This document shows positions 5,501-64,000 of a stretch of DNA of 64,000 nt, one piece after another (within the stretch, counting starts at the first letter, position 1; every line of letters begins with the position of its first letter). The notes under the pieces are model-generated. The model made no database searches and was not told the DNA's origin. It saw nothing but the letters and a program-made list of their open reading frames with translations. Where the stretch lies: assembly GCA_949152475.1 (NCBI GenBank), contig OX424558.1, positions 33,118,651 to 33,182,650 of the forward strand, given 5' to 3'. This stretch comes from Terebella lapidaria (taxonomy: Eukaryota > Annelida > Polychaeta > Terebellida > Terebellidae). The position numbers and the translations under genes are program-made.

Positions 5501-8500
5501 CCGGACGACGGACGCAACACCACGGCAATAGGTCATCGGACCAAAGGTCCGGTAACCTAAAAACACCGTTTTATAGTATGCTTCTCTGCGCGCTTGTACG
5601 GCGGTTTTATGTGTTCGCAGATACATGTGGGTCTATATTGGTCGAATATCCTATTTTGATCAACAGTGCAATGGTTTGTTGAATATTAACAATGTATAAA
5701 CGACAGGACTGTGGAAAAAAACAATGACGCGCCGTGTATAAATGTCCCATTTATGCCTGCAAACTTCGTTTTGCGTGATTAAATGACAGCTCTGATTTGC
5801 TCATGCGCTTCGGTCGTTCTGGCACATAGAACTTGGAATTCGACGGTTCAAAGCGATAATTTTTATAATCACAAGGAATGTGAATCAGAAGATGCGTCCA
5901 TTGAGGTGAAACTGATTGTTGGTTACTAGTATCCTACTTTGGTTATTGTGACTACATTTTGATAAAAAAATAATAATTATGTAATCTGGTTCGGGCCTAC
6001 TGACCATGCTTAAATGATCATTACGCCCTTACCAGATCACATTATTGATATATTCTCTTTCAGTTTATTTTGCATCGTGTGGGTTGAAATTTATGGGTCG
6101 ACATTCATTTGTTTTATTTCTGCTATAACATGTTTGTATACATATTATTTTTCTACAAATAAAGTGATGGAATTACCTTTTCCGTTGTCTCCCGGTGTTG
6201 TCGTACTATCTACCTCAGTTGTGAAAGATAGAAGACACGGCTCGATATGTATTTGTTGTGAACATGTTCTTATTTTTTCTCCAAATAAAGTGATGGGCTT
6301 ACCATTTCCGGTGATTCCCGGTGATGTTGTCGTAACCTCAGTTGTTTCTGTGAAAGATAGAAGACACGGCTCGACATGTATTTGTTATAATTCTGTTATA
6401 ACATGTTTATATACATGTTATTTTCTTTCTCCAAATAAAGTGATGGACTTGCCATTCCCGGTGATTCCCGGTGATGTTGTCGTAACTGCCTCAGTTCTTT
6501 CTGTGAAAGATGGAAGACACGGTTCGACATGGAATAGTTGTAATTCTGTTATAACATGTTTATATACATGTTATTTTTTTTTCCAACAAATGAATTGATG
6601 GACTTGCTATTTCTGGTGATTCCCGGTGATGTTGTCGTAACAGTAGCGGAACAATCTGCCTCAGTTGTTTCTGTGAAAAATAGAAGAGAATAGATTGCAC
6701 ACGCATATATTCAAGCGAATAAATATGGCAATCCAAGAATAGTACTATGAAAGCCTGCACAACATTTATAACACATAAACATACATTATGCGAAAAAAAT
6801 ATGTTTAAACTGCTGCTTACATGTATATCAGAATTATACACCAATTGCATTCGTTCAGGATCAATTTCTACCCCGCATCCGAGTCTGGTGGTGCTGCCAA
6901 GGTGCGGAGATTGATTTATCTACTACGATTTTTCAACAGATACGTTGGCCTACCTAGTGTACTTGTGGTCGTAATAGTGATATCCGATTTGATAGTTGGT
7001 TACTTGGTTGATTGAATGACTGGTTGATGATTAAATGATTGACTGTTAAGTTGGTTGATCTGCTGATTGACTGAAAAAACTAGAATCAGTTTATACTTAC
7101 TCCGATTGCCACATCCTTTGCACTCACAGACGAAATAGAGGCTACCTTCTTCACACTTTTTGTCGGCCCAGTTGCCGTCCTGTTTTAGATCTAGATGAAT
7201 ACATGGTTCATCCTTTCCTGAGCCTTCTCCTTTCCGCCACTGTGTGTACGTGATAGGCTTGTACTGTTGTGCCTCACATCCTGTCACTGATATAAACGCA
7301 ATGTAACGACTCATCTCAGCATACTCATATGAAAAACATAATTATGGGAATCAAAAGTTTCATTTAAACTTTCCACGCACAAAAGAAAACTTCCGTATCC
7401 GCATTTATTCAGAGATTTCTCCACGTTTTATATCACACTATTTTTCATTTTCATTGATTGCAGAAAAATCTGACTAAGATTTCATGAATGTTGATGACTG
7501 GTAATTTGAAACCAGGTGTGTAATTCAATCCAAATATGCATATGTCGTCCAATAATTCCCTTACCAGTAACCCAGGACCAGGGATGCCGCACGACTCCCA
7601 TCCAGTATTGCTGGGTGGTATTCCTTTCTCGCACTTGATCTCTCAATAACTCTTCCGAGTAAGCTAGGGACCTGCGGCTGTTCTCCTTTTGGCATGACTG
7701 GTTTGCATCGGACCAGGTCTGTACCGGGTCTTCGCCCGCTATGACATGTCCTAGAGCAGGAATGAAAAAAGACAGCTAGGATTCGAGCAACACCTGCATG
7801 CATATTTCATAATAACGGCAAAAATTAGCCCAAAGGCCAAGACAGGTTACAGGACAAAATATGTTTTATATTTTAGATATTAGCTGTTTTGTCCCGTGAC
7901 ATTGAAACGAACTTGAATATAAGGTCGAAGGTCAAATTAAGATCATCAAAATATTCAGCATACATCATTATCTTTATATTCAGAATAACGGTGGTTTATT
8001 TCAGTCACGTGATTCACAAAAGTAAATTCATAAATAGAAAAACTAAATTCGAAAATATTTTTTTGCAAATTGATGAATAAAAAAAAGTAAATTGGAAATT
8101 AAAAAAGGTAAATTGTTAATTCGGAAAAAGTAAATTCATAAAAAGGAAAAGAGCAAATTGCAAATTAAAAAAGGCAAATTGTTAATTCCGGAAAAGTAAA
8201 TTCATAATAGAAAAACTAATTTGGAAATTATTTTATGCAAATTGTTAAATAAAAAAGTAAATTGCAGATTAAAAAAGGCAAATTGTTAATTCCGAAGACG
8301 TAAATTCATTAATAAAAAAACTAAATTGCAAATTATTTTTTGCAAATTGTTAAATAAAAAAGTAAATTGTAAATTAAGAATTAGCCCAAGGGCTAAAATA
8401 GGTTACCGGACAATGTTTTTATAATTTAGAAATTAGTCATTTTGTCCCGGACCTTGAAAATGGGGTCAAAGGTGAATTTAAAGGTCACGAGGATATTCAG

Positions 8501-11500
8501 GATATATATCACTTCATGTCCACAAGTTATTCTTAAGATGTAAAGTCGATAATAAGTGAGAGATTAGCCATTATGTGCTCTGACCTTGCAAATGGGGTCA
8601 AAGGTCAAATTCAAGGTCATCAGAATATTTGGCATACATCATTTCCTATATATCCACAATTGGTTTCTAAGCTTTAAAGTCGATAATTAGCGAAATATTA
8701 GCCTTTCGTGCTTTGACCTTGAAAATGAGGTCAAAGGTTAAAAATGAAGGACACGAGAATATTCGACATATATTATTTCTCATATATCCACAATTGATTC
8801 CTGAGCTGTAAAGTCGATAATAAGCGAGATATTAGCCATTTTGTGCTTAGACCTTGTAAACGAGGTCAAAGGTCAAATTCAAGGTCACGAAAATATTCGG
8901 CATATATCATTTACTATATGTCCACAATTGATTTCTAAGCTGTAAGGTTGATAATAAACGAGATATTAGCCATTCTGTGCTTTGATCTTGAAAATGAGGT
9001 CATAGGTCAAATTCAAGGTCACGAGAATATTCGGCTGATATCATTTCCCATATGTCCTCAATTGATATCTAACCTGTATAGTCTATAATAAGCGAGATAT
9101 TAGCCATTCTGTGCTTTGACCTTGTAAACGAGGTCAAAGGTCAAATTCAAGGTCATGAGAACATTAAGCATATATCACATCCTATATGTCCACATTTAAT
9201 TCCTAAGCTGTAAAGTAGAGATTAAGCGAGATATTAGCCATTTTGTGCTCTGACTTTGAAAAAATGGGGTCAGAGGTCAAATTCGAGGTCACGAGAATGT
9301 TCAGCATATATCATTTCCTATATGTCCTCAATTGATTCTTAGCCTCTAATATCAATACTAAGTGAGATATTAGGCATAATGTGTCCCATTATAAAGCATG
9401 GGAGAATTTAACATGGAGAAGTCCCATTTGGGATCAGTCTCAGAATTGAAAATGGCCACCACACGCAGACCGGCGATTCAAATGCAACGAAACTTATACA
9501 TATCACAGAGGTATGTGGGGGGAATCTTTTGAAACAAAAATCTCAAAACTGTTTGAATAGTTTTCGAGAAAATGGCCACCAAATTTAGAAATTGGCCATT
9601 TTTCGTCTAAAATGGCCGCCATTTCGGAAAAAATGCGAAAATAAAAAACTAAACTTTCCTGGGAATAGTTTTAGCTATTTTTGTGCAAAATTTCATAAAA
9701 TTTCGACCGTAAACTTTAAAGATAAAAATGTGGACGGACGGACGATGGAAGACGGACGACGAACGCAACGCCACGCCGATAGGTTATTGGACCAAAGGTC
9801 CGGTAACCTAAAAATGCCAATTGTTAGTTGCGAAAAAGTACATTCATAAATAGAAAAACTAAATTCAAAATTATTTTGTACAAGTTGTTGAATAAAAAAG
9901 TAAATTGCAAATTAAAAAAGGCAAATTGTTTATTCCGGAAAAATAAATTCACAAAAAAAAACTAAATTGTAAATTATATTTGCAAATTGTTAAATAAAAA
10001 ATTAGCCCAAGGGCTAAGAAAGGTTACCGAGCTCGATTCTACACCGTGAAGATGGCGGCATAACTTTTTTAGAGCTCCTGTCTGTGCGATCGAAATGTAG
10101 TGATTTAAACAAAACTTGAGAAACCACAAGTTAACTGGCACAACAGAAACAAATATAAGTGTGATAATTCACAATTGGTGAAATTTGGTGTGAAATTAAG
10201 TTGAACAGGTGGTATTTCGAAGGTGTTTACGTTGGTGTTGACCAACAAGACAGTGAAAGTGGGCGATAATAGAGGTGTGTGTCCATGGCATAGGCGACGG
10301 CTGAATACAATCTACAGTACACACGGCAATTTTTTGCAGTCACGCCTCAATGAACACCATGTTACACCAAGGTAAATCCAAGATGCATACAAAGCCAGAG
10401 GTTTCTATGAGACAGGAACTTCTATCTGCGTTAACAGAAATGGGCCTGGACACGGTTTCAAAAGACCTGGCTGATATAAAGCACATAGTTAGTACTGTAC
10501 AGACGAAACAATCTGACCTGCAGGCTTCTCTCGAGTTCACGCAAAAAGCACAAGAGGCCACCAAAGAGGATGTTAGAATATTAAGAAACCACAATGAGCA
10601 ATTGATGAAACGACTCCAGTTCTCTGAGAATAGAATAACCGAACTTGAAAACAAAGTGATAAATTTGGAAACGAACATTGACGGAACCCAGTACCACTCA
10701 ATGAAAAACAATCTCGTTTTCTACAATATTCCAGAAGCCCCCAAAGAAAACACCCGATTAATTTTGATGAACTTTTTGAAGGGTGACATGCAAATTCCCA
10801 GAGAGTGTTTCAAAATCGAGCAGCTTGATACCTCTCAACCCCCAAACACTGTCTGGGTTGAACGATGCCACAGATTCGGTCAAGGGGGGCCATCGAGACC
10901 TCGTCCAATAGTCGCTGTCTGCGTCCTGGGCAGGGAAATCATCATGTCACACACTAAACAATTGGCTGGAACAGACTTTTTCGTCGCGCAACAACTACCA
11001 CCGAAACTCGCAGAAGACAAATATAAGATTTCCCATGTTTACCGGGAGGCAAAAACACAGGGGAAAAAACCGCGATTTGTGGGTAAGGGCTCCGCGGTAC
11101 TGGTGGACGACGAGATACACAGACTCCCTACAATCCCAAAATGCCACCTCAGCACTACAGAACTGCTAGAATACAAAAATAAGATCCAGGTCTCGAGTAG
11201 TAACATAGTTACTGAGCAAGGAAACCACTTCGCTGCACATGTGACTAGAGTCAACTCAGCTGCGGATATCTCTCCTGCACTGTCAGTGATAAAACACTCT
11301 CATCACAGACTCTCCAATGCTACCCATTCCATGTTTGCAGCAAGGATCTTAACAGAGGCCGGGCTACAGGAGTACTCTGATGACGATGGTGAATTCACCG
11401 GGGCTCGACACATCCTGAAGGCTATGCGCGATTGTCAGGCTGTCAACAAAATTGTGGTGGTGAACAGATGGGCCAGTGGAACCCAACTTGGAAGGAGGCG

Positions 11501-11887
11501 TTTCCAGATCATAACACATTGTACAAAGGACGTTATACGGAAAGCCGAAGGTAACGCAATGGTACCAGGAGGGGGAGAACACACGAATGTCACCAGTCCA
11601 AGCCTAACAATGAGCTCACCGCAATACACATCGTACACCAGCAAAGCCCCCCAGGACTCCACACCAACCCAACCCAATAAACGTGCTGATCAGCGCCCCA
11701 CACCACCGCAGCACTTGATGTCGTCAGGATCTCCGGACATGAACTCTGTAGCATCTGGCGGTGGCATGCTCCCAGTGTAATCTTGCAGGCACACAGAACA
11801 GTTTGAATTCAAGACTTAATTGAGTAAAGTCCGATAGGAAATGTTAGAATAGGAGGCTGGTTAGAATGTATATAAATACGAATATGT

Positions 11888-11930
<43 letters not shown>

Positions 11931-12247
11931 CAGGTGTGTATATCCACATATAAATGAATGTATTTCAAATCGAGGTCACTGAGGTTGGAATCGTAGGTAT
12001 TTATATGTATCTCGTAAACGAGACGTGTCCGTAAATATCGTTTAGTTTTATGTTAAGGAAGTTACTGACAGGAAAAATTGTTGTAAAGTGTGTTTGATCC
12101 GGATGTTGATAATAAGACGAACAAAATAAATAAATAAATATAATTTTTATTTAGCATATGAACATATGTATATATCGTGGACATAATTTGTTTTTGGTTT
12201 TTTTCTTGTTTTTGTTTTTGTCTTGTCAGGGGTGAAAGAAAGAGAAG

Positions 12248-12278
<31 letters not shown>

Positions 12279-15200
12279 AAATTAAGTTGGTATGTATCTT
12301 ATACATGGATACACACGACCTTGATACATATTGTTGTAATACTCATAGTGTATAATGTATATATGTAGATAATGAACATTAAAACTGTGTATATCACAGA
12401 AAATGAACTGTGTCTAGGTTCGGTTAGGCCTTGTTATCTATATATGTCTTCGATTACAAGTAATACGTATGTGTACTCAGGTTCCTTTGTATGTGTGTGC
12501 CTGTGAGTATAGGGAATTGTATATGTGTGTATAGGTAAATATGTAGGTGCATATAGAAGTGAGTGTATATGTGTCAGTATATATCAGTGTACATGCATGT
12601 AGGCATATAGGTATGATATGAACCTTGCGTGTTTCTGTCGAGGTGTGTGTGTGTAGGTGTATGTTTGAGAGTAGATATATTATTTTCTGAAACAAAATAA
12701 ATATGCATATTGAATGGAGACAATAACATGTCTGGCTAACACGTACAGTATATACCTTAGTATGTGAGTGTGTGTGACGGTTTTATGTGCAAGGGAGAGT
12801 ATGCTTATAAGAATTAATGATTATCCTTCGTATGAGCTAGATGAAAAAAAAAAAACATAAAGGGTATGAACCAATAATTGGAAATAACTGGAAATGCAAG
12901 GTTGTGACATATGTATAGTTGATAACGGTAATACCCCGAGTATAATGTTAATTTGAGTTGGAAGTGAATAGAAAAGCTATAAATTCATCAAGCATTAATA
13001 TAAGATAATTACGTACAATGGACATGTGTGTTTGTAAAGTGAAAAAAGAAAGAAAGTGTACATACAGATAAGGAAATGGAAATCAAATATAGTAAACGAA
13101 TGATTCAGGAAAAAAAGGGGGTATACCGTATGAAATTGAATGTATGACATTAATATACAGGTGTGTCTAGTTGTCTGTGAATGTCTATAGATGTGATTGT
13201 ATGTGTGAGCGTGGGTGTGTGTTTTCAATAAATAACCATGATAGCTGAGTAATGAACAATTAAAACATCAACGGTATATACAACTTAAACACTTCAGCAT
13301 AAGTTGGTGGTATGTGTGGGTGTCTTTTGTGCAGGTGCATATACGGGATATAGACGTGGGTGCACATGTAAATGTGGCGCAAGACATGTTTCCACTGTGT
13401 ATGCGACCCACGGTATATTATTGGTACTTATTTGAACTTAATTTGTGAGTATGAACAGCGTGAATAGAAATACTGTTTTTGTTTTTATATTGTTTGAAAA
13501 TATTAGGATTCAGGTTGTGTCCTATCTAGATTGCTACCCGTGAATATCAACTGATGACTACCAAGGTTTATATATGAGTAAAAAAGATAATGTGGGACAC
13601 AAATGAAGTGTCATTGAAGTCAGTCTGAACATTGCGTATGTATAGTATACCCAAAGGTAGTTGAGTTGGCAAATGGTGCTCGACTCTAATTGACGAAAAA
13701 GAAAAGTCTGTTTTCTAGTCTGTATGTGTTCGAAGACACAAAGATGAATACCGACCAGTACTGAATATTGTTAGACCCTTTTAGCGCAATGCTATTGTAA
13801 CATGATAAACTGGCAATCTTTGGGCAATCCCAGTAGCACAGATATGCTCAAATGAATAAATTTTGAAATTTAATTCACTTAATATGTTGACCCCTAATAC
13901 ATAAGGGCGGTATATCTGCAATAAGATTATGGAAGTAAAGACCTCCAAACCAGGATGTTGTGGAAACAATGTGTTGTTAATTCATACGGAATCACAAATA
14001 AATTACGGAAACCAATAAACAAATGGAGAAGCTCTTGACATGATTTATTGTACAGATACTAGGGAGAAAGTCACCCTAGTTAACCAGTTCTTCTCTCATA
14101 AGGGCCGATGGGTTATTGTCGTGGTTTTTTTCGTCCGTCGTCCGTCGTCGTCGTCCGCCACATCATCTGTTAACATTTTTTATCTTTTTTTTTTGGCCTG
14201 ATGAATTTGTCCATAAAATTGTGTGAATATGTATTGGGTGAATACCCCCAGAGATTTAAGTTTCAAAATGTTCCCCTCATGTATCCTTGTGGTGTGTATG
14301 GGTTTCGATGCTCTTGAATCGACGATCTGCGTGTGGCGGCCATTTTGATGTTTAACTGCGGGGCCCAAGTGGGACATTGCCATGTTGGGTTCTCCTATGC
14401 TTTATAGTGGGCCACAATGTTCTTGATGTCTCACTTGATATTGGGATTGGAGACTTGGAGTCGGTTGTGGACGTCGTTTTCAAGGTCAGAGCACAAAATC
14501 GTTAATATCTCGCTTGTTATTCACTTTACAGCATGGGGGTCGGTTGTGGACATGTGGGGGATGATGTGAGCTGAATATTCTCATGACCTTGAATGTGACT
14601 TTTGACCTTATTTTCAAGGTCAGAGCACAGGATGGCAGGTGTCTCGCTTGTTGTCGACTTTACAGCGTACGAATCAATTGTGGACATGTGGGGGATGGTG
14701 TATGCTGGATAACCTTGCAGCTACCAGACCATTGGTCCGATCACTTATTGGCTAGCCGGTAAGCTACAGGTCCCTTGGGCCTATGTTTCTTGATTACATT
14801 ATTATTTCACCAGGAATTCTTTGAAGGGCGGAAATGGTAATTTTGTTGTATATTGTGGTATTATTTGGTGTTTTGGTACACGAGTTGCAAGACTGTAATG
14901 ACGTATACTAACCAATGTGGTTTTCGCATAAAGTGAAGAAGATCGCACAGAACAGGAACGGCACAACTGCACGTACGTTGTAAGTGTATAAATACACTTA
15001 GATTAGAAACTAGTAAATTTTTGCAGCACTTCCACTTTTCACCTTGTCGCACATAACAATTTGTAGTTTCAATGCCAGGGGACTCACAAACAAACAGAAG
15101 AGAATAGATGTATTTGATTGGTTAAGGGGGAAAAATTACTCCATATATTGTCTCCAAGAATTTCACGGGAAGAAAGAATTAGAGAACACATACCTCAGTG

Positions 15201-18200
15201 AGTGGGGAAACAATGGGGTGTTCAACTTTTATAGCACAGAAAGTCGGGGGGTAGCTGTTTTATTCCAAAATAACTTTGAATTTGAAATTCACAACAAGAT
15301 GATTAATGAAGAAGGAAATATGATATTACTAGATTTGACAGTAGAAAGCAATAGAATGACGTTACTTAATCTATATGGCCCAAACCAAGACAAGCCTGAA
15401 TTTTATGAGGAGCTTTTTAATAGCGTGAATATATATGACAATGCTTCAATGGTTATATGCGGAGATTGGAATTTAGTCATGGATTATGATATGGATACTC
15501 TGAAATATAATAAAAACAACAATCCAAGGGCTAGACTCAAAGTTTTGAATAACATGGAATCGTTTAACTTAGTGGATATATGGAGGGTTAATAATCCATC
15601 AAAAAAGAGTTATACATGGAAAAGTTCGTACAGACCAACAAAATTAGGCAGGTTAGATTTCTTCCTAGTTACCGAAGATATTCATAATATTGCGCAGAAT
15701 ACAAGTATAGTTATGGGGTACAGATCGGACCATTCAATGATAACACTTTCCTTGAATTTACACCAGCAGAGGAGGGGTAAAGGCTTTTGGAAATTAAATA
15801 CATCTCTCCTGTTTGATGACAAATACAAATATATTATTAAACAATTGATAAGAGATGAAGTTGATCGATACAACATGGATGACAGTGTTAAAAATAGGAC
15901 CATAAGTGATGCTTTATTTTTCGACGTTCTCAAAATGTCCATCAGGGGTAGAACTATTGCTTATTCGTCACAGAAAAAAAAAATTACTAAACAACAAGAA
16001 AAACATTTATTAGATGAAATTGAAAAATTGGAAGGGGATATAGAAAGCGGGAACCTGGACGGAAACACATTAGATGCTTTGGAAACAAACAAAAAACAGT
16101 TACAAAATATGCGCGAGGAACATATAAAAGGGATTATGATACGATCAAAGGCAAAATACTATGAGGAAGGGGAAAAACCGACGAAATATTTTCTGAGTTT
16201 AGAAAAAACAAAGTATGTTAGTAAACTGATTAATAGGCTACACGATGAGGGAGGGGACATAACAAATCCTGTCAAGATATTGCAAAAACAGCAAGAATTC
16301 TACCATGAATTATATACGTCGAAAACAGATATAAAAGATCCAGGTTTAAATAATACTTTCTTGAGCTCGAACAACATTAAAAGCCTAAATGATGAGGAAA
16401 AACAGTCATGTGATGGTGATATTACAGAAGCGGAATTGGCAAGTGTATTGAAAAATATGAAAAACGAAAAAACTCCAGGCAATGATGGAATCCCAGCCGA
16501 ATTTTACAAAATATTCTGGAATGAAATAAAAGTGTACCTATTAAATAGTATAAACAACGCACACAGAACACAAGAACTGTCATTCACCCAGAAACAAGGA
16601 ATAATAACTTGCTTACCTAAAGGAAATAAACCCCGAACAAGTCTGAAAAATTGGAGGCCAATATCTTTACTCAACACAGATTATAAATTAATATCGGGTG
16701 CTTTAGCTATGCGTCTGAAAAAAGTCTTACCATCTATAATTGCACTAGATCAAAAAAGGTTTTTAAAAGATAGGTTCATTGGAGAAAATACAAGATTAAT
16801 TTACGATGTCATAGCTCATATTAACCACATACACGGGGAAGGGATAATTATGCTTATCGACTTTGAGAAAGCATTTGACACGATTGAATGGGACTATATA
16901 AAGCAAGTACTACATGCATATAACTTCGGGAGTGATTTTATAAACTGGTTTTCTATACTGTATAATGGGGCTTCTAGTTGCGTTATCAATAACGGATACC
17001 ACTCATCAATGTTTCAGCTTGGGAGAGGCTGCAGACAAGGCGACCCCTTATCCCCGTATCTTTTTATACTTGCAATTGAGCCATTAGCTATGTCCATAAA
17101 AAATAATAAGTTAATCAAGGGATTGAAGGTAAATAGTTTTGAGGTAAAAATTGGACAATATGCAGACGACACTTTTCTTATTCTTGACGGGTCAGATGAC
17201 AGTATTCGTAACACTTTTAATACACTACGGGAATTTGCTAATGTGTCGGGGCTGAGGATAAATGCGGAAAAAACTCAAATGGTATATCTAGGGGGGAACA
17301 AACTACAAAAAACTACAAAATGCCCGGAATTATCTTTAAATTGGGTGGAGGAGTTTACACTTTTGGGGATAAAATTTTCAACCAATCTTGATTGGGTGGT
17401 ACTGTATAATTATAAGAAAGCGATTGACAAAATGAAAAGTGTATTGAAAATACATGCCAAACGTAATTTAACATTGATGGGTAAGGTCACTATTATAAAA
17501 TCATTAGCTATTCCACAATTAGTACACATACTATCAGTGTTACCGTCCCCAAATAAACAACAAATTAAAGATATATATGACGTTCTTAAATCTTTTATTT
17601 GGGATGGGAAAAGATCTAAAATTGCATGGTCAAAATTAACCCTCAGTCATGAACAGGGCGGTCTCAATTTAACAGATCTGGATGTTTTTTTCGGCGCATT
17701 AAAGATTAGCTGGGTAAAAAGAATACAATCCCCGGGATCGTGGCAAATGTTATTTGAGGAAACCATCTGTCGAAATAGGAATATGCTGTGGGAACTTGAT
17801 AAAAAATCTCTTCTAAATATAAAGGGAAGAACACATAATAGATTTTGGAAAGAAGTTTTGGAATACTGGATCAATTTTCTATATGAAGACATGCATGTTG
17901 ACACTATTAGAAACATAATGAATTACCCAATTTGGGATAGTTTCTGGAACAATAATTTAAATGTAAATGCCGATAGAAATAATATATTATTAGGGAATAT
18001 CATTTATGTAAAAGACCTAGTTACAGAAACTGGACGTTTCTACACATACACAGAATTCAAACAAATTACACAAACAAAAATAACATTTCTTGACTATCAT
18101 GCTATGATTAAATCTATCCCCATTAACTGGAAAGATATAATGGTTTCTAACCAAATAGTTAAATCTGAGTGTGTCCTAACGACTAACCCTGTAGAGATTG

Positions 18201-21200
18201 TAAGAAATACCCCTAAACCAACAAAGTATGTGTACAAACAAATTATGAAAAGAGTGAAAATAATCAATACAAATGAACACAAGTGGGAAGAAATTTTCCA
18301 ACATAGCCTAGATTGGACATTTATCCACTCTCTACCACACTTTTGTACATTAGATCCCAAATTGCAAGATTTTCAATTCAAAATTTTACACAGAATCCTT
18401 CCATGTAATAAACATCTATTTATCTATAAGTTACGTGATTCAGATAAATGCTACTTCTGTGGCAATGATATAGAAACATACTGTCATCTGTTTCATGACT
18501 GTACCATAATAAAAATCTTCTGGAGAGAAGTCAGTGACTGGTTTGGCCCAGAGATAAATCTATACCAGTATATTAGTAGGGAAAATATTGTTTTGGGAAC
18601 GAAAGTTGAGAAAAACTTGATATTGATAAATCATTTGTTGTTGTTAGGAAAAAAGTTTATATATAATACTAGATGTAAAAACAAAAGTTTATCTCTGACG
18701 GGCTTTGTGAACAATGTGAAATCATGTTTCAATTTGGAAATGCATATAGAAAAGAATAGTACAATTAAGAAGAAAAGTAATTTCAATTTATGTCTAAAAT
18801 GGGCACTTTTGAGAGACCAACTGATGTGATATGCAAAATAGTGCCTCTCTTTTTTAATTTATCCCCTGGCAGAGGAAGTTGATGATATGATAGAAATATA
18901 TATAATAATTGTAAAGTGTATAAGTGCAAAATGCCAACTAGCTACATAATGTGTGTAGATGTATGTTCTTTTTCTCATTTTCTTTTTTGGATCAGATAGG
19001 AGCATTCAAATATATGAACATTTTTGTATGTGAATTTTGTTAATAAACCTTAAAAAAAAAAAAGAAAGGTTACCGGACAATGTTTTACATTTTATATATT
19101 AGCCATTTTGTCCCGAGACCTTGACAACAAGGTCAAATTCAAGGTCACAAGAATATTCAGCATATATCATTTCATGTCCACAATTGATTTCTAAGCTGCA
19201 AAATCGACAATGAGCAAGATATTAACCATTTTGTGTTCTGACCTTGGAGATGAGATCAAATTCAAGGTCATGAGAATATTCAGCATATATCATTTCCTAT
19301 ATGTGCTCAATTGATTGCAAAGCTGTAAGTTCGATAATAAACGAAATATTAACCATTTTGTGCTTTGACCTTGAAAATGAGGTCAAATGTCAAATTCAAG
19401 GTCATGACAATATTCAGCATTTATCGTTTACTATTTGTTCACAATTGCTTCCTTAACTGTAAAAATGATAATAAGCGAGATATTAGCCATTTTATGCTCT
19501 GACCTTGAAAATGAGGTCGAAGGTCAAGTTCAAGGTCATGACAAGATTCAGTATATATATCATTTCCTACATGTGCACAATTGATTCTAAGCTGCAAAGT
19601 CGATAATAAGCGAGATATTAGCCATTTAATGCTCTTACCTTGAAAATGAGCTCAAAGGTCAAGATCAAGGTCATAACAATCTTCAGCGTATATCACTTCC
19701 TACATGGCCCCAATTGATTTGTAGGCTGTAAAGTCGATGATAAGTGAGATTTCAGCCATTTTTTCCTATGACCTTGAAGTGGAGAACAAGGTCAAATTCA
19801 AAGTCATCAGAATATTCGGCGTATATCATTTCCTATACATCCACAACTGATTTTCTAACCTGTGAAGTCGATAATAAGCGACATATTAGCCATTTTGTGC
19901 TCTTGACTTTGAAAATTAGGTCAGAGGTCAAATTCAAGGTCACGGGAATATTCGGCATATATCAATTCCTATATGTCCACAATTGATCCCTAAGCGGTAG
20001 AATCGATAATAAGTGAGATATTAGCCATTTTGTCCTGTGACCTTGAAAATGAGGTCAAAAGTCAAATTCAAGGTCATGACAATAATCTGCATATATCATT
20101 TCCTATATGTCCTCAATTGATTCTTAGCCTCTAATATCAATACTAAGTGGGATATTAGGCATAATGTGTCCCATTATAAAGCATGGGAGAATTTAACATG
20201 GAGAAGTCCCATTTGGGATCAGTCTCCGAATTGAAAATGGCCACCACACGCAGACCGGCGATTCAAATGCAACGAAACTTATACATATCACAGAGGTATG
20301 TGGGGGGAATCTTTTGAAACAAAAATCTCAAAACTGTTTGAACAGTTTTCGAGAAAATGGCCACCAAATTTAGAAATTGGCCATTTTTCGTCTAAAATGG
20401 CCGCCATTTCGGAAAAAATGCGAAAATCAAAAAAACTAAACTTTCCTGGGAATAGTTTTAGCTATTTTTGTGCAAAATTTCATAAAATTTCGACCGTAAA
20501 CTTTAAAGATAAAAATGTGGACGGACGGACGATGGAAGACGGACGACGAACGCAACGCCACGCCGATAGGTTATCGGACCAAAGGTCCGGTAACCTAAAA
20601 ATGCAAATTGTTACTTGCGAAAAAGTAAATTCATAAATAGAAAAACTAAATTCAAAATTATTTTGTACAAGTTGTTGAATAAAAAAGTAAATTGCAAATT
20701 AAAAAAGGCAAATTGTTTATTCCGGAAAAATAAATTCACAAAAAAAAACTAAATTGTAAATTATATTTGCAAATTGTTAAATAAAAAATTAGCCCAAGGG
20801 CTAAGAAAGGTTACCGGACAATGTTTTACATTTTATATATTAGCCATTTTGTCCCGAGACCTTGACAACAAGGTCAAATTCAAGGTCATAAGAATATTCA
20901 GCATATATCATTTCATGTCCACAATTGATTTCTAAGCTGCAAAATCGACAATGAGCAAGATATTAACCATTTTGTGTTCTGACCTTGGAGATGAGATCAA
21001 ATTCAAGGTCATGAGAATATTCAGCATATATCATTTCCTATATGTGCTCAATTGATTGCAAAGCTGTAAGTTCGATAATAAACGAAATATTAACCATTTT
21101 GTGCTTTGACCTTGAAAATGAGGTCAAATGTCAAATTCAAGGTCATGACAATATTCAGCATTTATCGTTTACTATTTGTTCACAATTGCTTCCTTAACTG

Positions 21201-27200: not shown

Positions 27201-30200
27201 ACCATACAAATAATTGCATGTATATACCTTACGTGAAATTTCCCTCTATTTTCAATGTAAGGCAATGGTTCTGATAAGTTACCATATCGGAACACCTGTG
27301 TGTTACACTTATTGTATTACGTGTCCACAGCAACAGCGGTTGGAAATGCTAGTAAAACGCAAGCGTCAATGACGTAAATGTGGAGGGACCGGAGTCCAAA
27401 CCTTGTTTACAAACAGACTTGCTGGCTCTGAAAAATCCCAAAACACTCCCTGAATTCAAGCAAATAAACTAATTTAGGAAAATCAACAAGTATTCATGTG
27501 GGGGTATATAATAATAAGGTTAATGGGTGATAACAGGTTTGAGGCACTCGTTCTTGTCGTGCAAACTCACTCGCACGCTCGTGAGTTATGTAGCGCGACA
27601 ATAACCTTATAACTGAGTCATCTTTTTTCAGTTCAAGATTATTTGATGTGAACTTCTATTATCAAGGCTAAAACCTTACATGCCAGACCTAACGAGTAGG
27701 CATAATTGTATACCAGTAATCAATATCTTTGATATAATATTTGTCCTCATTTCAGGCACAATTCCAACCCATATCATGCACGTGATCTACAGTCGAGAGA
27801 TAAAGCTAGTGTTTAAAACAGCAGAGATAGGCAGCTAGCTTTCATCTCCAATGTTCCTCAAGCAAAGCCTATTGATTGATACAGAAGCGAAGACAGCTCC
27901 GTTTATACCATAATATTTGAACTGGATGCATTGGTTCTGATGCGCATATCATATGAATTTTCCTGTTTTAGGAGAATGCTTCTAGGGCCTTTCGGCCTTG
28001 ATGTTTTCTATGATTTTTAATCATCAGTATTACAGACCGTGATTCACAGTATGCCAATGTTGCAATCGAATAATTAAATATTTTCCTTGTAAAAATAAGG
28101 GGTGTTCGGGATAGTCATTATGTATGCTGTCCATTGTTACCGGGGTTTTCCGTAATATGGCCCTGGGCGATCTTTCGGAAAACAGCATCTCACCAAATAA
28201 AAATCGAATCCGAATTATGGCCCATCTGCGATCTTTCGGAAAAACCGTTTTCCACCAATACATCGCCAAAAATACATTGCCAAAATAATGAATATATGAC
28301 GGATATATGTTTAGTTTTGAAAAGCATGTCTATACCAAAAAAACATCCGGCAAAAGAAAATAAATCTCACCGATAGATATAAATTGCGCATCGGTACCTC
28401 TGATATGAAAATATACCAACCTTGGTATACCATTAAACTCTAATTATTACAGTTACATATTTCACACGGAATATTATAGTACAATTGATACATGAACATA
28501 TAGTTTAGACCTAAAGTAAGTATACTGTTTTTACTTGAATCTTTCTGGGGGGCAAATTATTCCTATTTCAAGCCAATAAGCGTAGCAGTCACCCCGTTGT
28601 GATTTTGACGCCCCTGTGACAGTTTTATGATGTAAAAACTTGACACATGTTTGATGAAATATATCCACGTTCAATAAATCGTTTAAATTTTCATCGAAAA
28701 TACGTTATAGAAAAAATCACGTCACCAAATTTTTTTTAAAAATGAATCCGAGTTTTCGCCCATGGGCCATCATTCGGGAATTTTCCATATGGGCCATATT
28801 ACGAGAAACCCCGGTATCATTCCCGCTGTTTACATGCCTGCATCATGCTGGAGATATCAAAATATCTAGTGCAACAGAAATAAGAAATTAGCCCAAGGGC
28901 TGAGAAAAGTTACCGGACAATATATATTTTAACATGAATTGACTAACATGAATGGAAACGTTCACACTTCAGGTATCGTGATTTCGGATGTGTCCGACCA
29001 CTTCGGAATTTTTACCATCACGCATTGTGTTAAACAAAATAAATCTCCAAAGGCCCAGTACGCAAGATCTTTCAAACTTGATAATATCGCCCATTTCAAT
29101 CAACTGCTATTAAATATCGATTTTTCTACTGTGAATAACACTTCCGACACGAACACGGCATACGGCCGATTTATTGCACTGTACCAAGGGGCATTTGAAG
29201 TGTCATTCCCATTGAAACGCCTCAACAATCATTCTAAATATGTAAAAAGTAATCCGTGGCTAACAACGGGAATCTTGGTATCTTCACGTCAAAAGACAAA
29301 ACTTCTGAAGAAAAAATTAAAAAGTCCGAGTGATATAAATACTATAAAGTACAAAAAATACCTAAATCTATATAACATCGTCTGTAAATCCGCAAAGAAA
29401 CAGTATTACGCTAACACCTTGACTAAATGTCAAAATAACATGAAACGAACTTGGTCCGTACTGTCTGAAATAATAAAAAAATCACGGAAGAAACAAACAC
29501 TTCCCAGAACTGTAATTGTGAATAACAAAGAATTTACAGATTGCCATAGCATTGCTGAGGAATTTAATAACTTCTTCGCGGACATCGCCCTAAACATGGA
29601 CAGTAAAATTTACAAACTCAATACTTCTTTCACCAGACATCTAAAAGATCCAAACAATCAGAATATATACCTATCCCCGATTTGTCCATCAGATGTTATA
29701 AACTCGGCAGCTTTACTTAAACCAAAACTAAGTCAAGGCTACGATAGCATATCCAGTAAGTTAGTTAAAGATACCATTCACAACGTTGCTGAACCACTCA
29801 CGCACATATTCAACCTGTCCATCTCTAACGGGGATTTTCCAGATGATATGATAATAGCCAAAATTATCCCGGTTCACAAAAACGGCACTACAACAGACAT
29901 AAACAATTACAGACCGATCAGCTTACTCCCCGCCTTCTCCAAACTACTTGAAAAAATAATGTACAAAAAGGTGTACAATTTTTTGAATACCAACGAAATA
30001 TTATATGAGCATCAGTATGGCTTTAGAAAAAATCATTCGACGTCTCATCCAATCATACATCTATTGAAAAATATAGTGCATAATAATGATAAGTCTAGCA
30101 AGAGTCTAACTACCGCTGTATTCCTCGACCTGAGTAAAGCTTTTGATACAGTTTCCCACGACATTCTCCTGTATAAGCTACAGTATTATGGGATAAGGGG

Positions 30201-33200
30201 GGTGGCTCTCAAATGGTTCAACAGTTATCTGACCGATAGGCATCAATTTACCGAATTCAACTCCTCAAAATCCTCACTGAAACTCCCCCGATATGGTGTG
30301 CCGCAAGGTTCCACGTTAGGTCCACTTTTATTCCTTATTTACATAAATGATTTATCTCTATGCACTGATCTAAACATATTATCGTTCGCAGATGACACTA
30401 CTGCTTATAAATCTGGTAATAATTTAAACAGTATTCTGAACACTATGAACATTGAATTGATGAAAGTTTATACTTGGCTGTGCGAAAATAGACTTTCACT
30501 GAATGGGAGCAAAAGTAAATTTATGACCTTCTCTCCCCAAGGCGCCAGACGAGTGGAAAGTACGGTCAATCTGAGTATAAATGGAATTGAAATAGAACAA
30601 TGCGGTGATGAATTTTGTAATAAATCCGTAAAATTTCTAGGCATAAATGTAGATGAACATCTGACATGGAAATATCATATATCAGAAATATGTAACAAAA
30701 TATCTAAATCGCTGTATGCTCTAAACAAAGCAAAACATTTTCTACCCTCATCCGCAATGCGCACATTATACTTCGCTCTAATTCACAGTATTATTTCATA
30801 CGGTATTATAGTCTGGGGTAATAGTAGAACGATATCTAAATTATTCAAGCTACAAAAGCGTGCCATTAGAATTATATCAAAATCAACTTACAGAGCACAT
30901 ACTGACCCAATATACAGTAGGCTCCAAATTCTGAAAATAACCGACATGTATGAATTGCAGGCTGCCCTATTTGCTCATGATTTCACTTACAATAAACTCC
31001 CGCAATCGTTCGCAGAAATATATCCGAAGCCCAAATCACAGAATTTCATGACAAGGCGTAGCACACACAAAAATCTCTATATTCCAAAAAGTAGAACATG
31101 TTTTTCCAGAACCTCCGTTTACTCCATGATTCCTGCCATATGGAATAACATACAGAACACTTTGAAAAATGAACAAAACCGCCGGAGATTCAAACACTCC
31201 ATTAAACTTTCTTTCATATCCCGTTATGAAACAAACGTATCCTGTATTAATCCACAATGTCTTCAATGTACTGGTGTATAGGTCTGATCATTATATATCT
31301 CCTTGTTCTCAGCATTCGTTCCGCGTCCTTTAAACTTCATTTGCGTCCCTGGTCTGGACCAACTGCTGTGACCACCTGGATTTATTGACAATACCACAAA
31401 TCGCCTTTAGAGCAAGGTCACGGCTCACTGGCCATGTTGGACACGCGCTGCTGCGCCGTCCCCACTCGCGTCTCAGGGGCACATCACAGCATATCAGCTA
31501 AACTTCGTGTACATAATCATTACATTAGCTCATCCATTATACATACGTGTTGTTTTTCCGTCCATCTTTCTATTTTTTTACTGTTGCTATGTTCTCATTG
31601 CAAGGGGGTCACAGGAAGACAGCTTCGGCTATGTTACTCCAAACACCCTTTGCCTTGTATTGTCGAAATTGTATATATTTTGTATAATGTGAGGTGTTGA
31701 ATAAATTATTATATTATTATTATATTATTTTAGATATTAGCCTTTTGTTCCGTGACCTTGAAAATAGGGTCATTGGTCAATTCAAGGTCACGAGAATATT
31801 CAACATATATCATCTCCAGTAGGTCAACAATTGATTCTAAGCTGTAAAGTCGATAATAAGTGAGATATTAGCCATTTTGTGATGTGACCTTGAAAATAAG
31901 ATCAAGGTCATGAGAATATTCAGCATGTATCATTTCCTCTATGTTAGCAACTGATTTTTAGGTTGTAAAGTCGATAATAAACGAGACATTAGCCATAAAT
32001 TCAGCATATATCATTTAATGTATGTTCACTATGGACTCCAAAGCTGTAAAGTCAATAATAAACGAGATATATGCCAATTTGTGCTCTGACCTTGAAAATA
32101 AGGTCAAGATCAAATTCGAGGTCATCAAAATATTCAGTGTATATCATTTTCTATATGTCCTCATTTGGTTCCCAAGTTATAAAGTCAACAGAGCAGCAAG
32201 AAATTAGCCATTTTGTCCTATGACCTTGAAAATAAGGTCAAAGGTCAAATTCAAGGTCATGACAATATTCAGCATATATCACTTTTTATATGTTCACAAT
32301 TGATTCCTAAGCTGTAAAGTCGATAATAAGTGAGATATTAGTCATTTCGTCCTGTGACCTTGAAATTTAGGTCAACGGTCAAATTCAAGGTCATGAAAAA
32401 AATCTATATATATTATTTCCTATATGTTCATGATTGATTCCTAAGCTGTAAAGTTGATAAGCGAGATATTAGCCATTTTGTCCTGTGACGTTGAAAATTA
32501 GGTCGAAGGTCAAAATCAAGGTCATGACAATCTTCAGAATATATCATTTCCTATATGTTCACAATTGATTTCTAAGCTGTAAAGGCGATAATAAGCGAGA
32601 TATTAGCCATTTTGTCCTGTGACCTTGAAAATCAGGTCGAAGGTCAGATTCAAGGTCATGACAATAATCTGCATATATCATTTCCTATACGTTCATAACT
32701 GATTCCGAAGCTGTAAAGTCGATGACAAGCGAGATATTAGCCAGTTTGTGCTCTGACCTTGAAAATGGGGTCGAAGGTCAAATTCAAGGTCATCAGAATA
32801 TTCAGCATATATCATTTCCTATATGTCCACAATTGATTCCTAAGCTGTAGAGTCGATAATAAGCGAGATATAAGCCATTTTGTGCTCTGACCTTGAAAAA
32901 GAGGTCAAAGGTCAAATTCAAGGTCATCAAAATATTCGGCATACATCATTTCCTATACGACCACAATTCAGTCCCAAGCTGTAAAGTGGATAATAAGCGA
33001 CATATTAGCCTTTTTCTTTGACCTTGAAAATGAGGTCAAAGGTCAAATTCAAGGTCATGACAATCTTCAGAATATATCATTTCCTGTATGTTCACAATTG
33101 ATTCTTAGTCTCTAATCTCATTATTGAGTGAGATATCAGGCATAATGTGTCCCATTATAAAGCATAGCATAATTTAACATGGGAAAGTCCCCTTTGGGAC

Positions 33201-52090: not shown

Positions 52091-54310
52091 TCCAATATTA
52101 CCACTGACCATAAACAGGCCTTACAGGTCTCCAACTGACTATAGACACGCCTCACAAGTCTCCCTTTGATCATAGACATACCACACAAGTCACCTTCTGA
52201 CCATAGACAGCCTTCACATGTCTCTGTCTGACCACAGACAGCCCTCAGAAGTCACTTTCTTACCATGAACAGGCCTCACAAGTCTGCATTTGACACATAC
52301 AGACCCAAAATGTTTCCCTCTGGTTATAGACAGCCCGCACAGTCTCGTTTTGACCATAAAACAAGCCCCGTAACTCTACGTCTGGTCACAAACATGCCTC
52401 ACAATATTCCTTCTGACTGTAAGGAGGCCCCACAAGTCTCAGTATCATCTCACTGACCATGAACAGAGCTTACACACATCCTTTTGACCATGAACGGGCC
52501 TCACAAGTCTGCTTCAGACCCCGAAAGTCTCTCTCTGGCCATCGACAGGCCTCTCAAGTCTACCTCTGTCTATAAACAGGCCCTACAAGTTTCCTTCTGA
52601 CCATATGCAGACCACCCCCGTCTACCTTTACCTAAAGAAAGACCTCACAAGTCTATCTCTGACCATAGAAAGGCCTCACAGATATATCTCTGTCAATGAA
52701 CAGGCCTCAATCGTCTACCTCTGACCATAGACAGGATTCACAAGTTTAATTCTGTCCAAGGACAGGCCTCATAAATCTACCTCTAACCACAGACCCAAGT
52801 TTCCATTTGACCACATACAGGCTCTCCCTCTGAACACAGATAGGGTTAGGAAGTCTACCTATATGGCTTGACGAGTCTCACTCTGACCATTGACAGGCCT
52901 CACAAGTCTCCCTTTTACCATACACAGAGCTCACAATTCTACGTCTAACCATAGATATGCCTCTGAAGTCTCCTGCTGACTGTAGACAGTCCTCATAAGT
53001 CCCCGCCTGTCCACAGACAAGCCTCACAAGTCTACTTGTCACCACAGACAGGCCGCACAAGTTTCCTTATGACCACAGATCACAAATCTCCCTCTGATCA
53101 TAAACATACCTCATAGTCATATGTATCCATCTGACCATACACAGGCCTCACAAGTCTCCATTTCACCACAAAGAGGATTCCAAAGTCTCCATATTGACAA
53201 GCATCAGATGTATCTCCATATATAAACATATGTATATATTCACAACCTTTTTGTAACAATCAGACAACCATTTTGTTACATTAACATTTTGCTACATGGG
53301 TTGTGTGACAAACAAGTCAACTCAATGGCAACTAACCGTCAGAAGTCTCCGTCTGAACATTATCGGGCCTCACTACTCACTAGCTTCCCGTCGCCTCAAA
53401 AGTCCATGCTGAACATAGTCAGGCCTCATAATTATCATACTGACCATCGATGGAACTCACAAGTCTCCCTCTGACAATATCCAGGCCACACAAGTCTAAA
53501 GTGGCCTATAGATAGACCTCACAATACTAGTATTATATTCCAGTCCATGAACAGGCCCTACAAATCTACCTCTGACCATAGGCCTCATTAGTCTGCACAT
53601 AAATATAGACAGGATTCTGTCCACAGACAAGCCTCAGACATTTACCTCAGACCATAGACAGGTCTCAGAGGTATACCTATGACCATAGACAGGCTTCACA
53701 TTCTCCCTTCGACTATGAACAGATCTCACAGTTCTCCCTGTGACCATAGACAGGCCTGACTTGTCTCCCTTTTAAAATAAACAGGCCTCAGAATTCTCCA
53801 TCGGACCACAGACAGGCCTCACAAGTCTCCATCTGACCACATACAGGCCTCACAGGTCTCCCTCTGATCACAGACAGGCCTCACAAGTCTCCATCCGACC
53901 ACAGACAGGCCTCACAAGTCTCCATCTGACCACAGACAGGCCTCACAGGTCTCCCTCTTACCACAGACAGGCCTCACAGGTCTCCATCCGACCACAGACA
54001 GGCCTCACAGGTCTCCCTCTGACCACAGACAGGCCTAGCACGTCGACTGCTGACCATAAACAGGCCTAACATGTCTAAACAAGCCTCACTATCTCCACAA
54101 TGCCCATGGACATATCACATAAACCATAAACAGGCCTAACATGTCTAAACAAGCCTCACTATCTCCACAATGCCCATGGACAGATAACATATCTACCTTT
54201 GACCACAGACTGGCCAAACAAGTCTACCTCTTATCATAAACAGGCCTCATAAGTATCTATCTGACCATGGACAGGCCAATCCCCATCTGACCACACCCAA
54301 GTCTCCCCAT
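52091..54310 (+). repeat. 31-bp satellite, old diverged block
   Basis: About 70 irregular units of the type GGCCTCACAAGTCTCCCT + CTGACCATAGACA, 27-34 bp each, with many substitutions. It is interrupted at 53200-53310 by the CAACCTTTTTGTAACA module. A more homogeneous patch lies at 53800-54030. Bases about 54055-54120 are repeated at 54121-54186 as a 66-bp direct duplication (AACATGTCTAAACAAGCCTC). Confidence 0.9.
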
Positions 54311-60260: not shown

Positions 60261-63200
60261 ATATAGACAGTCGTCATAAGTCTCCATTTTACCACATACA
60301 CAGGCCTCAAAAGTCTACCTCTGACCATAGACGGGCCTCACAAGTCTACCTCTGACCATAGATGGGCCTCACAAGTCTACCTCTGACCATACACAAGCCT
60401 CAGAAGTCTACCTCTGACCATAGACGGGCCTCACAAGTCTATCTCTGACTATACACAAGCCTCACAAGTCTACCTCTGACTATACACAAGCCTCACAAGT
60501 CTACCTCTGACTATACACAAGCCTCACAAGTCTACCTCTGACCATAGACGAGCCTCACAAGTCTACCCCTGACTATACACAAGCCTTAGAAGTCTACCTC
60601 TGACTATAGCCTCACAAGTCTACCTCTGACCATACACAGGCCTCACAAATCTACCTCTGACTATAGCCTCACAAGTCTACCTCTGACCATACACAGGCCT
60701 CACAAGTCTACCTCTGACTATACACGAGCCTCACAAGTCTACCTCTGATTATACACAGGCCTCACAAGTCTACCTCTGACTATAGCCTCACAAGTCTACC
60801 TCTGACTATACACAGGCCTCACAAGTCTACCTCTGACTATAGCCTCACAAGTCTACCTCTGACTATACACAGGCCTCACAAGTCTACCTCTGACTATAGC
60901 CTCACAAGTCTACCTCTGACCATACACAAGCCTCACAAGGCTACCTCTGACTATAGCCTCACAAGTCTACCTCTGACTATAGCCTCACAAGTCTACCTCT
61001 GACTATACACAGGCCTCACAAGTCTACCTCTGACTATACAAAGGCCTCACAAGTCTACCTCTGACTATAGCCTCACAAATCTACCTCTGACTATACACAG
61101 GCCTCACAAGTTTACCTCTGATTATAGCCTCGCAAGTCTACCTCTGACTATACACAAGCCTCACAAGTCTACCTCTATAGCCTCACAAGTCTACCTCTGA
61201 CTATAGCCTCACAAGTCTACCTCTGACCATAGACGGGTCTCACAAGCCTACCTCTGACTAGAGCCTCACAAGTCTACCTCTGACTATAGCCTCACAAGTC
61301 TACCTCTGACCATAGACGGGCCTCACAAGTCTACCTCCGACTATACACAAGCCTCACAAGTCTACCTCCGACTATACACAGGCCTCACAAGTCTACCTCT
61401 GACCATACACAGGCCTCACAAGTCTACCTCTGACCATAGACGGGCCTCACAAGTCTATCCCTGACTATAATAAGGCCTCACAAGTCTACCTCTGACTATA
61501 GCCTCACAAGTCTACCTCTGACTATAGCCTCACAAATCTACCTCTGACTATACACAGGCCTCACAAGTCTACCTCTGACTATAGGCTCACAAGTCTACTT
61601 CTGACTATACACATGCCTCACAAGTCTACTTCTGACTATAGCCTCACAAGTCTACCTCTGAACATACACAGGCCTCACAAGTCTACCTTTGACTATACAC
61701 AGGCCTCACAAGTCTACCTCTGACTATAGCCTCACAAGTCTACCTCTGACCATACACAAACCTCACAAGTCTACCTCTGACTATAGCCTCACAAGTCTAC
61801 CTCTGACTATAGCCTCACAAGTCTACCTCTGACCATACACAAGCCTCATAAGTCTACCTCTGACTATACACAGGCCTCACAAGTCTACCTCTGACTATAC
61901 ACAGGCCTCACAAGTCTACCTCGGACTATAGCCTCACAAGTCTACCTCTGACTATAGCCTCACAAGTCTACCTCTGACCACACACAAGCCTCATAATTCT
62001 ACCTCTGACCATACACAGGCCTCACAAGTCTACCTCTGACTATAGCCTCACAAGTCTACCTCTGACCATACACAGGCCTCACAAGTCTACCCCTGACTAT
62101 ACACAGGCCTCACAAGTCTACCTCTGACTATAGCCTCACAAGTCTACCTCTGACTATACACAAGCCTCACAAGTCTACCTCTATAGCCTCAGAAGTCTAC
62201 CTCTGACCATAGCCCCACAAGTCTACCTCTGACTATAGCCTCACAAGTCTACCTCTGACCATACACAGGCCTCACAAGTCTACCTCTCACTATAGCCTCA
62301 CAAGTCTACCTCTGACCATACACAGGCCTCACAAGTCTACCGCTGACTATACACGAGCCTCACAAGTCTACCTCTGACTATACACAGGCCTCACAAGTCT
62401 ACCTCTGACTATAGCCTCACAAGTCTACCTCTGACTATACACAGGCCTCACAAGTCTACCTCTGACTATAGCCTCACAAGTCTACCTCTGACTATACGCA
62501 GGCCTCACAAGTCTACCTCTGACTATAGCCTCACAAGTCTACCTCTGACCATACACAGGCCTCACAAGTCTACCTCTGACTATAGCCTCACAAGTCTACC
62601 TCTGACCATACACAAGCCTCACAAGTCTACCTCTGACTATAGCCTCACAAGTCTACCTCTGACTACACACGGGCCTCACAAGTCTACCTCTGACTATACA
62701 CAGGCCTCACAAGTCTACCTCTGACCATACACAGGCCTCACAAGTCTACCTCTGACCATACACAGGCCTCACAAGTCTACCTCTGACCATACACAGGCCT
62801 CACAAGTCTACCTCTGACCATAGACGGGCCTCACAAGTCTACCTCTGACTATAGCCTCACAAGTCTACCTCTGACCATACACAAGCCTCACAAGTCTACC
62901 TCTGACTATACACAGGCCTCACAAGTCTACCTTTGACCACATACGGGCCTCAGAAGTCTACCTCTGACCAGAGACGGGCCTCAGAAGTCTACCTCTGACT
63001 ATACACAAGCCTCATAAGTCTACCTCTGACTATAGCCTCACAAGTCTACCTCTGACCATATACCGGCCTCACAAGTCTACCTCTGACTATACACAAGCTT
63101 CACAAGTCTACTTCTGACTATACACAGGCCTCACAAGTCTACCTCTGACCATACACAGGCCTCACAAGTCTACCCCTGACCATACACAAGCCTCACAAGT

Positions 63201-64000
63201 CTACCTCTGACCACAGACGGGCCTCAGAAGTCTACCTCTGACTATACACAAGCCTCATAAATCTACCTTTGACTATACACAAGACTCACAAGTCTGCCTC
63301 TGACTATACACAGGCCTCACAAGTCTACTTCTGACTATAGGCTCACAAGTCTATTTCTGACTATACACAGGCCTCACAAGTCTAACTCTGACTATAGCCT
63401 CACAAGTCTACCTCTGACCATACACCGGCCTCACAAGTCTACCTTTGACTATACACAGGCCTCACAAGTCTACCTCTGACTATAGCCTCACAAGTCTACC
63501 TCTGACCATACACAAGCATCACAAGTCTACCTCTGGCTATACACAGGCCTCACAAGTCTACCTCTGACTAGAGCCTCACAAGTCTACCTCTGACTATAGC
63601 CTCACAAGTCTACCTCTGACCATAGACGGGCCTCACAAGTCTACCTCCGACTATACACAAGCCTCACAAGTCTACCTCCGACTATACACAGGCCTCACAA
63701 GTCTACCTCTGACCATACACAGGCCTCACAAGTCTACCTCTGACCATAGACGGGCCTCACAAGTCTATCCCTGACTATAATAAGGCCTCACAAGTCTACC
63801 TCTGACTATAGCCTCACAAGTCTACCTCTGACTATAGCCTCACAAATCTACCTCTGACTATACACAGGCCTCACAAGTCTACCTCTGACTATAGGCTCAC
63901 AAGTCTACTTCTGACTATACACATGCCTCACAAGTCTACTTCTGACTATAGCCTCACAAGTCTACCTCTGAACATACACAGGCCTCACAAGTCTACCTTT
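60261..64000 (+). repeat. 31/26-bp satellite, homogenised array
   Basis: Uninterrupted array in one orientation. The long unit is CCTCACAAGTCTACCT + CTGACYATACACAGG (31 bp). A short variant lacks five bases (ACTATAG joins directly to CCTCAC, 26 bp). The two alternate irregularly. Bases 61256-61690 are repeated without difference at 63566-64000, so a 2,310-bp higher-order unit exists. The array runs beyond the window. Confidence 0.95.

Follow-up and report, generated by a model that had tools for sequence, protein, structure and literature searches.

In the 64,000-nt stretch of Terebella lapidaria DNA analysed here, referred to as the window, a LINE was predicted to encode in its ORF1, after an L1-type coiled coil, RRM and CTD and in the same reading frame, a domain of the IMPACT/YigZ type (UPF0029). 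This prediction raises the question of whether such a domain is really present, whether it belongs to the retrotransposon, and what it might do there.

The element spans nt 10030–19063 of the forward strand (≈9.0 kb), its borders being drawn from the sequence and from a match with an empty site elsewhere in the window. It is enclosed by two identical copies of a target-site duplication, AAGAAAGGTTACCG, at nt 10016–10029 on the left and nt 19062–19075 on the right (strand not assigned), and its 3′ end is an A12 tail (nt 19052–19063); since the first two A of AAGAAAGGTTACCG are ambiguous with this tail, the length of the duplication is given as 12–14 bp. When the flanks were joined (229 bases on the left, 225 on the right), they aligned with a paralogous empty copy of the insertion site at nt 20588–21041 (strand not assigned) in 454 of 454 columns, with 4 mismatches and no gap, thus confirming the predicted duplication-bounded element and indicating that the stretch with both ORFs was inserted as a single unit. 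The identity of the duplication copies suggests a young insertion. Duplication and A tail, the marks of target-primed reverse transcription, are both present, as is proper to a LINE of the L1/Tx1 superfamily. A composite of two neighbouring elements was also considered and is ruled out by the empty site. The sequence AAGATGGCGGC (nt 10049–10059, forward strand), whose first letter is base 20 of the element, is what we take to be a YY1-like site, resembling the one at the start of human L1, and is possibly a convergent or an old promoter feature.

As regards the surroundings, a repeat present at nt 8400–9810 and at other places of the window starts, by eye, with AGGTTACCGGAC and ends with GTCCGGTAACCT, and contains internal 134-bp tandem units; the LINE was inserted within the first bases of one copy of it. 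The window also contains, at nt 28939–31281, another reverse transcriptase frame (780 aa; RVT_1, E = 4.6e-34), which is ≈25% identical to the ORF2 of the element across the RT. Tandem arrays of 31 bp occur in C-over-G stretches at nt 53616–54076 and nt 60295–63998, the second one reaching base 63998, near the window end.

ORF2 (nt 15017–18829, forward strand) is an L1-like frame with an APE-type endonuclease, a reverse transcriptase and a zf-RVT region, the latter scoring 24.5 bits and thus below the Pfam cut-off of 27.5. Its best PDB match is the LINE-1 ORF2p (residues 2–1163, E = 2.9e-96), which makes the L1 protein the nearest among PDB chains, and the combination of APE, RT and a C-terminal Cys-rich region is the one expected for ORF2 in the L1/Tx1 superfamily, in which the LINE was placed as a whole. 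No ATG was found near the start of the frame (nt 15017–15100), implying either an unusual initiation or the loss of the start in this copy. ORF2 begins 3.2 kb downstream of the ORF1 end. The intervening spacer (nt 11781–15016, forward strand, 3236 bases) is unusually long, with G prevailing over C (746 to 430), and contains an A27 run (nt 12248–12274), simple repeats and a nested repeat of 134-bp units (matched stretch nt 14251–14711), of which the window holds many copies. A tblastn comparison of 127 fetched proteins with the window gave matches only in ORF1, ORF2 and the RT frame near 29–31 kb, hence nothing resembling those 127 proteins lies in the spacer. The linkage of ORF1 with ORF2 is established for this single copy; among the ORF2 matches listed (best 120 of 357), no ORF1–ORF2 pairing was found in relatives.

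ORF1 (nt 10350–11780, forward strand, as are all its parts) is indeed one uninterrupted frame of 476 aa, as the original prediction had it. A coiled coil (nt 10437–10688, about aa 30–113) was matched by PDB coiled-coil chains, the best one for the ORF1 profile being 1deb (E = 0.00057), and by Pfam coiled-coil models below their cut-offs. It is followed by a region of L1-type RRM and CTD (nt 10689–11135, about aa 114–262, with approximate borders), a linker (nt 11136–11201, aa 263–284), the UPF0029 domain (nt 11226–11537, aa 293–396) and a tail (nt 11544–11777, aa 399–476). The RRM and CTD were recognized at the profile level: a core profile of eight ORF1s, including the distant relatives P0006 and P0007 (each 24–25% identical to the window ORF1), had as its top PDB match the LINE-1 ORF1p 2yko (E = 3.9e-5, profile positions 6–143 of 166), and single-protein searches with P0006 and P0007 gave matches of the same type at E values of 0.03–0.05. 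The window ORF1 alone did not match any LINE-1 ORF1p in the PDB up to E = 1, 2yko was absent among the best 60 of 96 matches of a first six-protein ORF1 profile, and no L1 ORF1 model was matched in a Pfam scan of the window ORF1 and its relatives. The predicted L1-type coiled coil, RRM and CTD are thus moderately supported, more by the eight-ORF1 profile than by single proteins, and the succession of a coiled coil and of RRM plus CTD, as read from the 2yko profile match, is that of a type II (L1-type) ORF1p.

The profile check named in the original prediction for the IMPACT/YigZ domain returned a significant match, and the motifs cited for it are found in the translation of nt 10350–11780. Pfam-A UPF0029 matched ORF1 with 68.6 bits against a curated cut-off of 27 (E = 5.6e-19), over positions 4–107 of the 107 of the profile, thus placing the protein within this family; 12 further Pfam families, mostly of coiled-coil proteins by name, appeared up to E = 1, all below their cut-offs. 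In the PDB, the single window ORF1 sequence matched the entry 6bqi, named 'Protein IMPACT homolog' and which we take to be yeast Yih1 (E = 8.7e-9); with a profile of six ORF1s the match with 6bqi reached E = 4.2e-18, and TTHA1053 was matched at E = 0.002. The NCBIfam YigZ model (TIGR00257) was matched only over positions 15–111 of 205, scoring 26.9 bits where the cut-off is 167.95 (E = 3e-6), so that the protein is not a full-length YigZ. In place of the RYFGG-type signature, presumably a UPF0029 motif, the window ORF1 has RWASG; membership in UPF0029 stands despite this alteration, since it rests on the profile. A chance resemblance of motifs was considered as well and is ruled out by the UPF0029 E value. 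We regard the identification of the domain as UPF0029 as nearly certain.

One search of public protein data retrieved five close ORF1 relatives, 37–44% identical to the window protein, and a profile search among 5468 candidates gave seven at E values up to 1e-3, namely those five together with P0006 and P0007. UPF0029 was detected in four of the five close relatives (P0001, P0002, P0004 and P0005, E values from 4e-25 to 5e-17); the fifth, P0003, comes from a 1252-base contig and stops just before the position of the domain. A Pfam scan of P0006 and P0007 did not detect UPF0029; P0006 (436 aa, source code lgn) has instead a full NADAR domain (aa 290–435, E = 1.4e-41) at the position that UPF0029 occupies in the window ORF1. 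The seven relatives thus comprise four with UPF0029, one with NADAR and two with neither. Judging from these sequences, the predicted fusion of ORF1 with UPF0029 is not a one-off, and the occurrence of several related proteins with the same domain suggests that such elements use it. Searches for related loci gave 44, 0 and 2 pattern matches in a collection of viral contigs and 19 in a collection of genome contigs, none of them confirmed as relatives; as these collections consist of viruses and prokaryotes, this result says little on an animal element.

Conservation was compared across the parts of ORF1. In the five domain-bearing proteins (ten pairs, P0003 being left out because it is without the domain), mean identity was 29.6% in the coil, 44.7% in RRM plus CTD and 42.5% in UPF0029, so that at the amino acid level the domain is nearly as conserved as RRM plus CTD and more than the coil. 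Linker and tail were poorly conserved, with mean identities of 21.5% (15 pairs, six proteins) and 22.3% (3 pairs), respectively. The five domain-bearing ORF1s were then aligned with three cellular references, namely 6bqi and partial stretches of TTHA1053 and of YigZ, and the 20 columns identical in all three were taken as reference columns. Nine of these (F294, A324, H326, D345, D346, G347, E348, R373 and G381) are kept in all five ORF1s, 14 in at least four, and 13 in the window ORF1, while E305, A307, A309 and G352 are lost in all five. Seven of these universal columns are polar, and five of the seven do not vary among the ORF1s; of the other two, S292 occurs in two of the five proteins and E305 in none. 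The alteration of RYFGG, which the original prediction had described for the window protein, is seen there and in P0004 and P0005; it does not extend to all members, P0001 and P0002 having RWYGG. According to passages of PMC4503747, the invariant features common to Yih1 and YigZ belong to loops located on the same side of the protein; together with the universal columns kept here, this would mean, in our reading, that much of the ancestral ligand site has been retained.

The explanation that best fits these data, which we advance tentatively and rate a little short of probable, is that the element is a non-LTR retrotransposon of the L1/Tx1 kind, inserted recently, and that its ORF1 contains a once-captured UPF0029 domain working in the ORF1 particle, likely on the RNA side. 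The colinear alignment makes it most likely that there was one capture, by which UPF0029 would have been gained after the CTD of an L1-type ORF1 before the five domain-bearing proteins diverged. By analogy with L1, the ORF1 multimer would coat the element RNA by means of RRM and CTD, and the appended UPF0029 may act inside this particle through its ancestral ligand site, most likely by an extra contact with RNA or the ribosome, or by processing RNA or a nucleotide. ORF1 proteins bind and chaperone the element RNA, as established for L1, and the UPF0029 fold is of the ribosomal protein S5 domain 2-like class, which includes several RNA binders, so that an accessory module on the RNA side would be the most economical reading and is preferred here over a signalling decoy. 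The RNA-side role, taken by itself, is proposed with somewhat more reserve than the explanation as a whole.

The first of the two roles suggested in the original prediction, namely GCN1 binding by ORF1p through UPF0029, with dampened GCN2 signalling and continued translation under stress, appears quite improbable. It has in its favour that overexpressed IMPACT and Yih1 inhibit Gcn2 and are ribosome-associated (passages of PMC7140605), that PF01205 together with PF09186 has been suggested to counter the inhibition of translation in starvation (in part of PMC6822775), and that the yeast mapping is too coarse to exclude a part of the ancient domain in the GCN1 contact. However, IMPACT and Yih1 affect GCN2 through competition for Gcn1, and the binding part named in the same portion of PMC7140605 is the RWD domain, to which Gcn1 binding is also attributed in the cited portion of PMC4503747, where substitutions in RWD helix H3 reduce it. 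No RWD domain was found in ORF1 by a Pfam scan up to E = 1, which is what weakens the GCN1 reading, and the linker preceding UPF0029 is among the poorly conserved parts of the protein. Alternatively, UPF0029 could be an enzyme whose substrate is RNA or a nucleotide and which guards the RNA or cDNA of the element, as NADAR may do in related ORF1s. The invariant H326, DDGE (345–348) and R373 could form a polar site, and P0006 carries its NADAR at the very position of UPF0029. On the other side, we know of no activity of UPF0029, and two unrelated domains at one position need not share a use. The function of the ancient domain is also termed unknown in the portion of PMC7140605 considered here. 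As NADARs reverse guanine ADP-ribosylation (part of PMC11125620), and as the NADAR of P0006 has a counterpart in Tx1 ORF1s of Crassostrea gigas (part of PMC12477816), we keep this enzyme as a live rival, albeit an unlikely one.

Conservation also bears on the idea that UPF0029 serves only structure or solubility, or is carried along as a passenger that binds no ligand. In its favour, the window protein, P0004 and P0005 have an altered RYFGG, and E305 and G352 are lost in all five proteins, but an identity near that of RRM plus CTD and the invariance of H326, D345–E348, R373 and G381 argue against it, and we lend it little credence. Finally, the window holds one copy of ORF1 with UPF0029, which could recall a host gene fusion or an assembly artefact merely lying beside a LINE; with a single open frame, a target-site duplication enclosing both ORFs, a gap-free empty site and relatives of the same architecture, this explanation is extremely improbable.

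Several universal UPF0029 residues are kept in retrotransposon proteins, which connects this domain with a life cycle that runs through RNA; such proteins would also provide a selectable assay for it, namely retrotransposition with changed residues. The fusion also adds to the idea of ORF1 as a modular platform. Going further, and as a speculation in which we place little confidence, ORF1 proteins of the L1/Tx1 type might offer a plug-in slot after the CTD, where different elements would carry different modules that guard nucleic acids or are linked to translation (UPF0029 in the window, NADAR in P0006), against host restriction or to protect their RNA, and the LINE might serve as a handle on the biochemistry of the ancient IMPACT/YigZ domain.

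Other ORF1s are already known to have captured additional domains (esterase, PHD and NADAR). No report of UPF0029 or YigZ in a retrotransposon ORF1 was found in the open-licence PMC literature, and the term 'UPF0029' is absent from the main-text portions consulted of two papers on molluscan LINEs (PMC11203168 and PMC10294476). Five ORF1 types are listed in passages of PMC4120745, among them those with RRM plus zinc knuckle, the L1-type, and those with PHD or esterase, and none of the five includes UPF0029, in line with the original prediction that the domain falls outside the known types.

Compared with cellular proteins, the window ORF1 shares with IMPACT and Yih1 the ancient (UPF0029) domain, with 30% identity to 6bqi in 115 aligned columns, and differs in having no detected N-terminal RWD and in the fusion of the domain to an ORF1 core. 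With YigZ and TTHA1053, UPF0029 proteins of the PDB that we take to be bacterial, it shares the domain, including its DDGE and R...G columns, at 31% identity over 84 columns with TTHA1053 and 19% over 89 with YigZ, and differs from YigZ in matching only the first half of the YigZ model. As for where the domain came from, 6bqi is the better match of the two by profile, whereas by plain identity TTHA1053 is as close to the window domain as 6bqi. Among retrotransposons, the ORF1s of Crassostrea gigas Tx1 LINEs described in the cited part of PMC12477816 likewise add an extra domain to a LINE ORF1, the same one as in P0006, but this is NADAR, which belongs to a separate Pfam family from UPF0029. 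Esterase (type IV) and PHD (type III) ORF1s also have an accessory domain within ORF1, and in the esterase ones the active-site residues are conserved (passages of PMC3905857 and PMC4120745); these types, however, belong mostly to CR1 and L2 elements, and esterase ORF1ps are described as having no defined RNA-binding domains. A further parallel is the type II (L1-type) ORF1p, which has the same coiled coil, RRM and CTD, as judged from the 2yko profile match, and from which the window ORF1 differs in that UPF0029 and a tail follow the CTD.
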